Source: Arachidicoccus sp. BS20 (GTDB lineage Bacteria; Bacteroidota; Bacteroidia; Chitinophagales; Chitinophagaceae). Taken from it: a stretch of 64,000 bases of DNA. This document shows positions 60,702-64,000 of this stretch, in pieces. Position 1 is the stretch's first letter, and the number at the start of each line of letters is the position of its first letter. Under the pieces are notes generated by a model. It saw only the letters and a list, made by a program, of their open reading frames with translations. It was not told the DNA's origin and did no database searches. The DNA is taken from positions 62,001 to 126,000 of the forward strand of contig NZ_CP015971.1 of the NCBI RefSeq assembly GCF_001659705.1, written 5' to 3'. Made by a program: the position numbers and the translations under genes.

Positions 60702-62810
60702 GTGCGTATGTTTTTGAAAATATATTGGAAACCGGTTTTATGGTTGTTGGTTTTTTATGTGAGTGTATGTACTGTTCTGAGAATTGCACTGCTGCTGAAT
60801 CCCGTTACTACAGCGCATTTTTACTTTATCGATTATGTAAAAATTTTCGTCGGCGGTGCATTGAACGATGCGCTGATATTTGTACTTCTTGGTACACTGT
60901 TATGGTTGTATTTATTGTTTTTGTCTGATGGAAAATTTAAAAAACCTTTCGGTTATATCATCTTCGGATTGTTGGTTGCATTGCTGTGTTATCTCATTTT
61001 CTTCAACAATATTCTGAAGCAATACGGCAATGTTGTTCCGCTCATCGGAATCCTGTTTGTAAGTTTTAAAACATTGCTGTTCGGATTGATGCTGTTTTTC
61101 CCGAAATTGCGCAAACCGTTGAGAACCGTATTTTATTTCATCACGGTTTTGCTTTTTGCCGCGCTCATTTTGCTGAATGCCTTGAGCGAATATTATTTTT
61201 GGAACGAGTTTGGCGTACGCTACAATTTTATCGCGGTTGATTATTTGATTTACACCAATGAAGTCATAGGTAACATCATGGAATCTTATCCTGTTGTGCC
61301 CTTGTTTACTATGCTTGGAATTATTGCACTCGCGATAACTTTTTGGATTGTGTATAAAACGAGGGTTTTCGTTACACAATTGCCAACGTTTTTTACCAAG
61401 ATAAAAATCACTGTAATATACGGCGGTGCTGCGTTTCTGAGTTTTTGGTTATTGCCTTTGTTGAGCAAAATGGGCAATACTGACAATATGTTCGCAAGCG
61501 AATTGCAATCCGATGGTGTGTATAAATTCTGTGTTGCTTTTATCGATAACGATTTGAATTATTTCAAATTTTATTCGACGATAAATCAAGCTGAAGCATT
61601 TCGATTATTAAAAAATCAGTTGCCCGGTTTGCAGGGGAAATCTACTTTGCATGAAGTAAAAGATTCGTTGCCCGAAATACACAAAAACGTGGTGTTGATA
61701 ACCGTTGAAAGCCTGAGCGAAGATTATTTACAACATTATGGAAATTCAAATCATCTTACGCCGTTTCTTGATTCGCTGGCAGATGAAAGTATGTTTTTTA
61801 CAAATTTGTACGCCGTCGGAAACCGCACTGTGCGCGGGCTTGAGGCTGTTACGCTTTGCATTCCGCCTGCGCCCGGCGAAAGCATTATCAAACGGAAGGG
61901 TAATGAAAATAAATTCAGCACGGGCTTTATTTTTAAGCAAAAAGGTTATCAGGTAAAATTTCTGTACGGCGGTTACAGCTATTTTGATAACATGAGAGAT
62001 TTTTACGAGGGCAATGGTTATGACATTGTGGACAGAAATAATTTTGCGCCGAATGAAATTTCTTTCGCCAATATTTGGGGTGTATGCGACGAAGATATGG
62101 CAAAGAAAGCGATTAAAACAATGAACGCGGAAGCTGCGACAGGCAGGCCTTTTTTCAATCATTGGATGACGGTTAGCAATCATCGTCCGTTCACATATCC
62201 GAACGGAAAAATTGATATTCCGGGCGATGCAAAATCGCGAGAAGGCGGCGTAAAATATACTGATTATGCTTTGAGAAGATTTTTTGAAGTGAGCGAAAAG
62301 CAAGCGTGGTTCCACAATACCGTGTTTATCATTGTTGCCGACCATTGCGCGTCTTCGTCGGGCAAAACGGCTTTGCCGATGTCTAAATATCGTATTCCGT
62401 GTATTGTGTATTCGCCCGGTTTTATTGTACCGCAACAAGTTGATAAACTGATGTCGCAAATAGATATTATGCCAACTGTGATGAGTCTTTTACATTTCAG
62501 TTATTCATCAAAATTTATCGGGCAAAATGTGTTAGATGCGAATTACAAGCCGCGCGCTTTTATAGCGACTTATGAAGATATGGGCTTTGTTAAAAACGAT
62601 ACGCTTACGGTGCTTTCGCCTGTGCGGGAAGTGAAACAGTATCATCTTGCGCCCAAAATACTGGACAGTATTGAGCCGCAATTTCAATATCAGTATAAGG
62701 AAGTGCCAGTGAAAAATATCGATAAAAATTTGCAGAACGAAACGGTAAGCTATTATCAAACTTCGGCTTGGCTAATGCAAAACGGCAAGTTTCAAAATGA
62801 TGCGAACTAA
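60702..62810 (+). CDS. LTA synthase-like (sulfatase-fold) membrane enzyme
   Basis: 702 residues from the GTG at 60702, chosen because GGAGG at 60688-60692 lies nine bases upstream; the ATG at 60708 is the alternative. Five hydrophobic helices (to about residue 265) precede an extracytoplasmic alkaline-phosphatase-type domain: NVVLITVESLSEDYL, nucleophile Thr in VGNRTVRGLEA, FNHWMTVSNHRPF, and the metal ligands in FIIVADHCAS. Family members transfer phosphoglycerol or phosphoethanolamine groups to glycolipids or polymers. In Bacteroidota the acceptor is not known. A strong Shine-Dalgarno sequence is unusual in this genome. Confidence 0.87.
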   Translation: MRMFLKIYWKPVLWLLVFYVSVCTVLRIALLLNPVTTAHFYFIDYVKIFVGGALNDALIFVLLGTLLWLYLLFLSDGKFKKPFGYIIFGLLVALLCYLIFFNNILKQYGNVVPLIGILFVSFKTLLFGLMLFFPKLRKPLRTVFYFITVLLFAALILLNALSEYYFWNEFGVRYNFIAVDYLIYTNEVIGNIMESYPVVPLFTMLGIIALAITFWIVYKTRVFVTQLPTFFTKIKITVIYGGAAFLSFWLLPLLSKMGNTDNMFASELQSDGVYKFCVAFIDNDLNYFKFYSTINQAEAFRLLKNQLPGLQGKSTLHEVKDSLPEIHKNVVLITVESLSEDYLQHYGNSNHLTPFLDSLADESMFFTNLYAVGNRTVRGLEAVTLCIPPAPGESIIKRKGNENKFSTGFIFKQKGYQVKFLYGGYSYFDNMRDFYEGNGYDIVDRNNFAPNEISFANIWGVCDEDMAKKAIKTMNAEAATGRPFFNHWMTVSNHRPFTYPNGKIDIPGDAKSREGGVKYTDYALRRFFEVSEKQAWFHNTVFIIVADHCASSSGKTALPMSKYRIPCIVYSPGFIVPQQVDKLMSQIDIMPTVMSLLHFSYSSKFIGQNVLDANYKPRAFIATYEDMGFVKNDTLTVLSPVREVKQYHLAPKILDSIEPQFQYQYKEVPVKNIDKNLQNETVSYYQTSAWLMQNGKFQNDAN

Positions 62811-62862
62811 CAATTAATAACGACCGCACGATTTTTTATAACTTTTTATTTTCCAAAATTTA

Positions 62863-62893
62863 TTTGGTGGTTTCGTATTTGTAATTACCTTTG
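62863..62893 (+). promoter_or_regulatory. Consensus promoter for the pheA leader
   Basis: TTTG at 62863-62866, 19 bases, then TACCTTTG at 62886-62893: exact match to the Bacteroidota consensus. The predicted start of transcription is near 62900, about 30 bases before the leader ATG at 62929. Confidence 0.82.
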
Positions 62894-62928
62894 TCAAATA
62901 ATAGTGAAAAGATATATAAATAAAAAAA

Positions 62929-63009
62929 ATGTTTTCTCGCGTTACATATTATTTCGGATTTTATTTCTCTTTCTTTTTTAGAAGAAAGCGGGTTGGCTTT
63001 TGTAATTAG
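62929..63009 (+). CDS. pheL: Phe/Tyr-rich leader peptide of the prephenate dehydratase attenuator
   Basis: 26 codons, ATG at 62929 to TAG at 63007. Of these, eight are Phe and three are Tyr (residues 2, 9, 11, 13, 15-17 and 24 are Phe; 7, 8 and 12 Tyr), with FFF at residues 15-17 just before a basic RRKR. The composition is that of a leader peptide that senses charged tRNA-Phe, as in the pheA leaders of enterobacteria. The stop codon places the terminating ribosome over the antiterminator half at 62989-63002. The symbol pheL is given by role; sequence homology to the E. coli leader is not claimed. Confidence 0.8.
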   Translation: MFSRVTYYFGFYFSFFFRRKRVGFCN

Positions 63010-63057
63010 AAAATAAAATCTGAACAAAACCAATCCCGAAATTTTCGGGATTTTTTT
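62989..63057 (+). terminator. Attenuator: antiterminator and terminator upstream of pheA
   Basis: Terminator arms AATCCCGAA (63032-63040) and TTCGGGATT (63044-63052), followed by T7. The competing antiterminator pairs CGGGTTGGCTTTTG (62989-63002) with CAAAACCAATCCCG (63025-63038), nearly full complementarity, and uses up the left arm of the terminator. The two structures exclude each other. Confidence 0.82.
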
Positions 63058-63070
63058 ATATATACGATGT

Positions 63071-63919
63071 ATGAGTAATCAAAAAATTCAAAAACATAAA
63101 GTTGCTATTCAGGGATACGAAGGCTGTTTTCATCAGGAAGCGGCACAGCATTTTTTCGGGAAAGATGTAGAAATTGTATGTTGCGATACATTCAGGGATT
63201 TGGTAAAAGTTGCTTCACACAAGCGTGAAAGTACGGGCGGAGTAATGGCGATTGAAAATTCCATTGCCGGCAGCATCCTTCCGAATTATAATTTGTTGCA
63301 AAAAAGCAACCTCAAAATTGTGGGCGAAGTGTATATGCAAATTCGTCAAAATTTGCTGGTTAATATTGGCACAAGTTTAAGTGAACTGAAAGAAATTCAT
63401 TCGCATCCGATGGCATTGCAGCAATGTTTGAAATATCTGGACGAACATAATTGGAAGCTCGTAGAAACCGAAGACACAGCGTTGAGCGCAAAGAAATTAG
63501 CGAAAAGTAAAAGTCCGTATATCGGTGTAATTGCGAGCAGACTTGCTGCGGAAATTTACGATTTGGAACTCATTGCTCCGAACATTCACACGATGAAAAA
63601 CAATTATACACGCTTTTTGATTTTGAGTAGGGAAGAAGATACAGCGGAAATCGATGATGCGAACAAAGCGTCCGTTTATTTTCATACGGATAACTCGAAA
63701 GGTAGTCTGGCAAAGGTTTTGAACAAAATAAATGAAACAGATATTAATCTTAGTAAGCTGCAAAGCTTCCCGATTCCCGGCAGCGATTGGAAGTATAGTT
63801 TTCATGCAGATATGGAGTTTGACACGCGTGAACAGTTAAGCTCGGTATTGAAAAAATTAAAGCCGGTAACAGAAGAGTTGAAAGTATACGGTGTGTATAG
63901 AAAAGGGAAGAATGTGTGA
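63071..63919 (+). CDS. pheA: Prephenate dehydratase
   Basis: 282 residues. Converts prephenate to phenylpyruvate, the last but one step to phenylalanine. The periplasmic-binding-like catalytic part (residues 8-185) contains VAIQGYEGCFHQEAA, MAIENSIAGSILPNYNLL and NNYTRFLIL, whose Thr-Arg-Phe triad is the family catalytic signature. A C-terminal ACT domain (about 195-275; SVYFHTDNSKGSLAKVL, ESR-like region LSKLQSFPI) gives feedback inhibition by phenylalanine. There is no chorismate mutase part. Its upstream region forms a Phe-dependent attenuator, so both enzyme activity and transcription respond to Phe. Confidence 0.93.
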   Translation: MSNQKIQKHKVAIQGYEGCFHQEAAQHFFGKDVEIVCCDTFRDLVKVASHKRESTGGVMAIENSIAGSILPNYNLLQKSNLKIVGEVYMQIRQNLLVNIGTSLSELKEIHSHPMALQQCLKYLDEHNWKLVETEDTALSAKKLAKSKSPYIGVIASRLAAEIYDLELIAPNIHTMKNNYTRFLILSREEDTAEIDDANKASVYFHTDNSKGSLAKVLNKINETDINLSKLQSFPIPGSDWKYSFHADMEFDTREQLSSVLKKLKPVTEELKVYGVYRKGKNV

Positions 63920-63920
63920 G

Positions 63921-63988
63921 TTGGCTTATAGTTGATAGCTAATAGTTCATAGCAAGTGTTCCGGCTGTGAACTATGAACCATAAGCCA
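63921..63988. repeat. Imperfect inverted repeat after pheA
   Basis: TGGCTTATAGTTGATAG near 63922-63938 is mirrored by CTATGAACCATAAGCCA at 63971-63987, 15 of 17 bases complementary. It is made of degenerate TTCATAG units and is a typical intergenic repeat, not a clear terminator. Confidence 0.5.
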
Positions 63989-64000
63989 TGAACTTAAAAT

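Follow-up and report, generated by a model that had tools for sequence, protein, structure and literature searches.

Evidence for a Phe/Tyr-coded leader-peptide attenuator upstream of pheA in Arachidicoccus sp. BS20 and its relatives in the Chitinophagaceae

The pheA gene of Arachidicoccus sp. BS20 is encoded within the window (the whole stretch of 64,000 nucleotides that was analysed) and is preceded by a short ORF crowded with phenylalanine and tyrosine codons. This arrangement raises the question of whether the region controls pheA by ribosome-mediated attenuation, as the first-pass annotation proposed, and if so, which amino acids it would sense and how widely it occurs. The sequence and its comparison with relatives point with high confidence to an aromatic amino acid operon under ribosome-mediated transcription attenuation. 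The features are located at 62863–63070, followed by pheA itself:

62863–62866, + strand: TTTG, the −33-type element of a predicted promoter (sequence; sigma-ABfr promoter consensus from PMC7366714)
62886–62893, + strand: TACCTTTG, the −7 element of the predicted promoter, an exact TAnnTTTG
62929–63009, + strand: leader peptide ORF of 26 codons with 8 Phe and 3 Tyr (conserved in the family, see below)
62947–62979, + strand: control-codon run YYFGFYFSFFF (sequence; codons used at the equivalent positions in 85 leaders)
62953–63024, + strand: hairpin of the control-codon region with 63008–63024, −19.1 kcal/mol, z −3.1; possible protector or pause hairpin
62989–63003, + strand: antiterminator 5' arm, with one bulge at 62997 (fold, covariation)
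63024–63038, + strand: antiterminator 3' arm, with one bulge at 63034 (fold, covariation)
63032–63052, + strand: intrinsic terminator hairpin, with a T run at 63051–63057 (7 T) (pattern scan, covariation)
63071–63919, + strand: pheA, prephenate dehydratase, 282 aa (Pfam PF00800, PDT, 6.8e-56)

The promoter was claimed to be exact, and its two elements, TTTG and TAnnTTTG separated by 19 nt, do match by sequence the promoters of sigma-ABfr, the Bacteroidota housekeeping factor, which feature TAnnTTTG with TTTG near −33. Transcription is predicted to start near 62898, based on the numbering of the box from T at −12 to G at −5 in PMC6847099. The leader ORF reads MFSRVTYYFGFYFSFFFRRKRVGFCN and terminates with the stop codon at 63007–63009; its 26 codons, its Phe and Tyr content and the position of the FFF codons (62971–62979) are as first described. 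The Phe codon at position 24 forms part of the antiterminator arm and does not count among the control codons. An out-of-frame GTG ORF (62904–62981) adjoining the predicted transcription start was considered and set aside. Within the 261-nt intergenic stretch, which has a GC content of 26%, an ATG-started ORF with at least nine F/Y in 12 codons arises in 6 of 20,000 dinucleotide shuffles. Such chance tests on the window alone are moderate, and conservation among relatives is the stronger evidence.

The 3' arm of the antiterminator shares 63032–63038 with the left arm of the terminator, and the overlap of a rho-independent terminator with the antiterminator was correctly recognized in the first-pass annotation. 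The antiterminator was given there as pairing of 62989–63002 with 63025–63038; this pairing is real, though the two bulges listed above interrupt it and an inner helix prolongs it. The segment 62989–63044 folds at −18.0 kcal/mol (z −5.2, with 0 of 200 shuffles as good), and the longer segment 62980–63060 folds at −21.6 with the antiterminator present and the terminator absent. The terminator alone is weak evidence, since the pattern scan of 62000–64000 returned four terminator-like sites against 1.8 expected. The hairpin between the control codons and 63008–63024 had been overlooked. Its layout resembles the outer stem of the Rfam Phe_leader, and the pairing of control codons with the post-stop region is strongest in the window among 82 leaders (−14.9 kcal/mol, z −5.4). 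A protector hairpin was rejected as a conserved part of the element, as this pairing reaches z < −2 in only 5/82 leaders (mean z −0.3).

The identity of pheA as a prephenate dehydratase gene is upheld by the PDT domain of its product, which also has an ACT_4 match (5.6e-05) below the cut-off for that family. The genes behind pheA are predicted from Pfam matches to encode an aminotransferase, prephenate dehydrogenase (tyrA), a DUF6882 protein, a DAHP synthase with chorismate mutase, dehydroquinate synthase and EPSP synthase. An additional ORF in this row (L002, 5364–7037) may encode a DEAD-box helicase. The leader heads a row of genes for the common aromatic pathway and for both the Phe and Tyr branches, and these genes are presumably co-transcribed. 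In 26 of the 27 loci compared (25 genomes), pheA is followed by an aminotransferase, a tyrA or a DAHP synthase relative. The tyrA gene is found behind pheA in 8/9 Chitinophagaceae genomes compared, and the ninth (L008) ends approximately 230 nt past the aminotransferase gene.

For comparison with relatives, PheA was found in 133/195 genomes of the family, with the best 30 places taken as loci. Named genomes yielded a further 196 stretches, and the best 80 of them were used; this second set overlaps the first. The closest named relatives of PheA among these best 80 of 196 stretches are Arachidicoccus proteins with 77% identity. The 110 loci, with the window's own genome counted once, were reduced to 92 by collapsing identical upstream stretches. 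An F/Y-rich leader was called by script in 90/92 distinct stretches, the exceptions being L072, where the upstream DNA is only 39 nt and cannot be judged, and L084, where a leader (MTITKAYRWFYFYYFFSQKPGLLLLKAY) is present and had been missed through a length limit of the script. For L076 the script picked an overlapping ORF and the leader was set by hand. The leader precedes pheA in 91/91 distinct judgeable family stretches, own included, a count that covers close PheA relatives and so represents the family's nearest part and not the phylum. The terminator was found by script in 88/90 family stretches, own included, and was seen by eye in the two that the script missed, one with a mismatch (L006) and one where the stretch ends early (L071). 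The search of other Chitinophagaceae proposed in the first-pass annotation, for the same leader upstream of pheA, came out in favour of the element, and both hairpins are kept and covary.

Covariation was assessed in an alignment of 86 distinct stretches, reaching from the last F/Y codon to the terminator. The antiterminator appears there as GCCGGGA..CUUUUGUUGA paired with UCAACAUAAAG..UCCCGGC, with 86.0% of cells paired and 11/18 pairs changed on both sides. Its double-change cells number 61 against 23.9 in shuffles and its covariation score is 0.158 against 0.103, with the shuffles leaving relatedness in place; sliding the partner by one to three columns lowers pairing to at most 53.0% and the score to at most 0.068. 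The terminator is paired in 92.9% of cells, with 66 double-change cells against 20.4 in shuffles and a score of 0.211 against 0.124 (at most 0.091 when slid). Some loci, including those of the window's genus, seem misaligned by 1–2 bases, which lowers the covariation figures. When the antiterminator was folded against shuffles of its own 5' part, z fell under −1.64 in 81/82 leaders (mean z −4.6).

Measured by alignment column, the spacing between the last F/Y codon and the helix of the antiterminator is 8 nt in 64/86 leaders and 7–11 nt in 84/86 (one leader at 3 nt, one at 6, nine at 7, five at 9, three at 10 and three at 11). For the window, the fold of its own sequence puts this spacing at 9 nt. 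A ribosome with a codon in the A site covers approximately 9 nt past that codon, so a ribosome at the last F/Y codon would stop at the edge of the helix. By comparison, then, the leader is conserved, the alternative hairpins are conserved and covary, and the spacing is fixed. This combination of conserved gene, leader, hairpins and spacing is what ribosome-mediated attenuation predicts, and it bears out the original reading of the element.

The window holds a short ORF rich in codons for the product of the operon, an intrinsic terminator between this leader and the first gene, and an antiterminator that shares bases with the terminator and whose 5' arm (62989–63003) falls within the leader ORF. 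In the proposed mechanism, the RNA would start near 62898 and a ribosome would begin the leader ORF without a Shine-Dalgarno signal. When Phe-tRNA, and probably also Tyr-tRNA, is scarce, the ribosome would stall in the F/Y run with its leading edge at approximately 62988. The 62989–63003 arm would then pair with 63024–63038 as soon as the latter is made, ahead of the right arm of the terminator, and RNA polymerase would continue into pheA. When charged tRNA is plentiful, a ribosome at the stop codon (63007–63009) would cover the 5' arm, allowing the terminator to form and the operon to be turned off. If the leader is not translated, the hairpin at 62953–63024 may block the antiterminator in this genome.

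Equilibrium folding was set aside as support for the switch because the terminator is favoured in the stalled state too. With a ribosome placed at the last control codon, the mean terminator probability is 0.925 (n = 82; 0.83 in the window) and falls below 0.5 in only 5/82 leaders; with the ribosome at the stop codon it is 0.984. As equilibrium favours the terminator even with a stalled ribosome, the switch must be kinetic and depend on the order of synthesis, which is usually assumed to be decisive for attenuators. Before the right arm of the terminator emerges, the antiterminator is available at a mean of −17.0 kcal/mol versus −19.1 for the terminator, and the corresponding window values are −18.0 and −10.3 kcal/mol.

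The codons of the run bear on which amino acids would be sensed. Over the last 12 codons in 85 leaders, F accounts for 46.5% and Y for 31.5%, percentages that are inflated by locating the run via its F/Y codons. Leu is absent, Ile makes up 0.3% and Ser 2.5%, compared to 18.1, 10.1 and 9.8% respectively after nucleotide shuffling. At 8/12 positions, 20 or more of the 85 leaders have F and 20 or more have Y, with both F codons and both Y codons in use. The absence of Leu and the exchange between F and Y are not products of F/Y-based run selection alone. The same attenuator could sense Phe only, with Tyr codons tolerated as suiting the RNA or the peptide, and this is a possibility of some weight, if clearly the lesser one. 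The aroR leader of Corynebacterium glutamicum (Phe-Tyr-Phe) answers Phe and not Tyr according to PMC11802643, the run ends with an F codon in 84/85 leaders, and lineages in which tyrA is not seen beside pheA may keep their Tyr codons, such as L164. On the other hand, at least two Tyr codons are retained in 84/85 leaders (mean 3.8), the exchange at 8/12 positions occurs with almost no Leu or Ile, and tyrA is present in the window's row and nearly all of the Chitinophagaceae rows compared. In five loci (L120, L125, L164, L170 and L198) no tyrA is seen next to pheA within the short stretches, and Tyr codons are not uniformly lost among them.

Action of the leader peptide or of the F/Y run itself, by nascent-chain arrest or in trans like peTrpL of Sinorhizobium, is improbable. 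Leader peptides that act in trans are known (PMC7298713), but the F and Y residues exchange, synonymous codons vary and the peptide of the tail, where two frames are in use, is not conserved. The motif TTTTG of the tail falls in phase 1 in 55/85 leaders, in phase 0 in 12/85 and was not found in 18/85, so that the tail reads ..MLLL.. or ..LLLL.. in many leaders and ..SFC or ..CFC before the stop codon in others. As TTTTG is read in two frames, it is the RNA and not the peptide that appears to be kept. Still less credible is a riboswitch, T-box or protein-binding leader in place of the ribosome as sensor. A terminator with an antiterminator would by itself fit those attenuators, but the conserved part here is a reading frame of F/Y codons that ends a fixed distance before the antiterminator, and a search with Rfam returned no family at gathering threshold besides tRNA in the window, T-box and riboswitch families included, or in eight relatives. 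A constitutive partial terminator with an accidental F/Y-rich ORF is scarcely tenable, for although the intergenic stretch is AT-rich and terminator-like patterns are common, the rarity of such an ORF in shuffles, its presence in every judgeable family stretch, the covariation and the depletion of Leu and Ile all argue against it.

With ribosome-mediated attenuation as the preferred reading, the position of the promoter suggests how translation of these leaders begins. An exact TAnnTTTG lies within 90 nt of the leader start in 78/85 distinct leaders, own included, versus 6.9 after shuffling, and 62 of these 78 have TTG in the −33 interval. The Phe/Tyr leaders were compared with His and Trp leaders recognised by motif (26 and 24 respectively, each out of 30 loci chosen as the best among 46 and 51 places) and with background genes from 20 stretches of 20 kb, whose starts are first ATGs and may be wrong. 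This background replaced an earlier control of 133 genes from pheA loci, which contained only four promoters. A leader with a TTG start (L090) was excluded, leaving 84 Phe/Tyr leaders. When an exact −7 box is present within 60 nt, which is not the case for most background genes, it begins 12–21 nt before the AUG in 69/74 Phe/Tyr, 19/23 His and 7/9 Trp leaders and in 6/20 background genes. As shares of all, these are 69/84, 19/26, 7/24 and 6/151, with shuffled counts of 1.0, 0.2, 0.1 and 0.9 respectively. Allowing one mismatch gives 77, 22, 20 and 22, with 15.0, 3.5, 3.6 and 12.9 after shuffling. The Fisher p-values of this comparison ignore relatedness and are not reliable as they stand. Because the box is numbered −12 to −5 (PMC6847099), leaders with the box 12–21 nt before the AUG would begin 0–9 nt from the RNA start. 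By comparison, 5' UTRs shorter than 10 nt make up about 3.7% in Bacteroides thetaiotaomicron (PMC7366714).

The pheA leader of the window is itself an exception, with its box 43 nt from the AUG and a predicted AUG approximately 31 nt into the RNA. The his leader of the same genome (MILNVHTHHHHFLSKG, box TACATTTG) and its trp leader (MLINKVNIHWWWQANSASGMFE, box TATCTTCG with one mismatch) both have their predicted start at +1. For Phe/Tyr leaders from other families (25 in all), the best box is 23–54 nt before the AUG, except in f51 (15 and 16 nt) and f52 (12 nt), where each box has one mismatch. A Kozak-like signal was not evident in the 85 leaders, 42% of which have A at −3. The near-absence of a Shine-Dalgarno signal had been singled out as remarkable, and it is instead normal for the group (PMC6847099, PMC9976891). 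On balance, the Phe/Tyr, His and Trp attenuators of Chitinophagaceae seem to share one design, in which the AUG lies 0–9 nt from the RNA start, ribosomes would load at the bare 5' end and exchangeable Phe and Tyr codons would let one switch sense two amino acids; the window's genome would keep this design for his and trp and have a longer leader for pheA.

The family leaders recognised by motif contain WW before trpE in 24/30 loci (L225–L254) and are H-rich before hisG in 26/30 (L255–L284). A terminator was seen by eye behind both the his leader (L285, 1146400–1148200) and the trp leader (L238, before trpE) of the window's own genome. Between the trp attenuator and trpE in L238, within roughly 510 nt ahead of the trpE domain match, there is an ORF of at most 145 aa in the same orientation, and from this position and orientation it would share the control of the attenuator.

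Beyond the family, a draw of genomes from the class yielded the enzyme domain in 39/149 genomes. Upstream DNA was read in 38 of these (30 loci and 8 fetched, with G590 excluded), a set that includes the window's own genome and two others from its family. In 26/38, pheA is preceded by a short ORF having five or more F/Y in 12 codons, and 20 of those have at least seven; ORFs with five or six (6 of 26) are weak, as 17% of the window's intergenic shuffles reach five. No F/Y-rich ORF was found before pheA in the remaining 12/38. In at least five of these (L113, L116, L117, L148 and L149) pheA closely follows another long ORF and no leader is expected; the other seven have no such explanation. An F/Y-rich ORF was found in 1/4 additional stretches of the same class and in 0/7 stretches from outside it. 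Three other families have tandem F/Y-rich short ORFs before pheA (L139/L196, L143/L197 and L150/L198, weaker in L150), and a terminator behind each tandem ORF was seen, by eye, only in L139. In L138 a terminator-like hairpin without an F/Y leader lies directly before pheA and is perhaps a decayed attenuator.

A covariance model of the element (R1) matched 56/198 genomes of the class at E 0.01. Among 30 class-search loci inspected on both strands, five have an F/Y leader and PheA: L163, L164, L166 (the window's own), L168 and L170, of which L164, L168 and L170 place the element before pheA in two other families. The other 25/30 have neither, and R1 was rejected as a finder of other controlled genes; its matches inspected by eye resemble terminators or unrelated places. 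A second R1 match in the window's own genome (493607–493697, minus strand) was dismissed as a terminator behind another gene. The family search with R1 matched 137/147 genomes at E 0.1, where weak matches are not to be trusted.

Among known systems, the element resembles in layout the enterobacterial pheL-pheA attenuator (Rfam RF01859, Phe_leader), with which it shares a Phe-rich leader peptide, a terminator, an alternative pairing, the gene controlled (PMC11802643 for pheL-pheA) and, in the window, a stem in which the control codons pair with the region preceding the terminator. It differs in its many Tyr codons, the missing Shine-Dalgarno signal and a gene row that also holds tyrA and common-pathway genes, and the likeness scores 33.2 bits (E 4.5e-4; 33.9 bits in relative L060), below the gathering score of 55. 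The aroR-aroF system of C. glutamicum likewise has a single leader with codons for both Phe and Tyr ahead of a gene of the aromatic pathway (PMC4046766, PMC11802643), but its codons are Phe-Tyr-Phe only, its response is to Phe only and it belongs to another phylum (PMC11802643).

Within Bacteroidota, leader-peptide attenuation is not unprecedented. Clues for such attenuation before amino acid operons were described for Flavobacteriaceae, including a conserved 5' element before pheA without an Rfam hit (PMC9723704), and leader-peptide control was proposed for Bacteroid-trp (RF01692) and other amino acid leaders of the phylum (PMC2864571, PMC6414381). The structured 5' elements that precede pheA and hisG of Flavobacterium psychrophilum are alike in phylum, gene, proposed attenuation and lack of an Rfam hit, and a Phe/Tyr run, an antiterminator or a spread outside Flavobacteriaceae is not given in the main-text portions of that account (PMC9723704). 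Bacteroid-trp concerns Trp, the WWW leaders of the family before trpE are separate from the pheA element, and RF01692 has no match at the window element even at E up to 10. Leader ORFs at the RNA 5' end are known from Streptomyces lividans and from trpL of Sinorhizobium (PMC8079986, PMC7298713), which are unrelated lineages, and the Chitinophagaceae case is drawn from promoter position only. Look-alikes can be deceptive: swapping candidate control codons before ilvB of Streptomyces coelicolor was without effect (PMC1262725). No title or abstract opening among the open-licence papers listed describes near-leaderless leaders or a Phe/Tyr leader in this group.

The attenuator is of an ordinary kind, has good comparative support and reaches further than was first seen. 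What is new here is the exchangeable Phe/Tyr control codons, the spread to other families of the class and the leader peptides that are predicted to be near-leaderless, and the near-leaderless, Phe/Tyr-coded version common to the family is the part most deserving of specialist attention. It provides a model of how Chitinophagaceae would regulate their Phe and Tyr branches and a candidate RNA family that no Rfam entry matches at threshold, and it allows the sensing of two amino acids by a single leader to be tested. Ribosome-mediated attenuation needs the leading ribosome to keep pace with RNA polymerase, and conservation of its parts in a class that does not rely on Shine-Dalgarno pairing implies that such pacing occurs in that class and offers a ready reporter for it. 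Loading at the bare 5' end, if it takes place, would couple RNA polymerase to the first ribosome.
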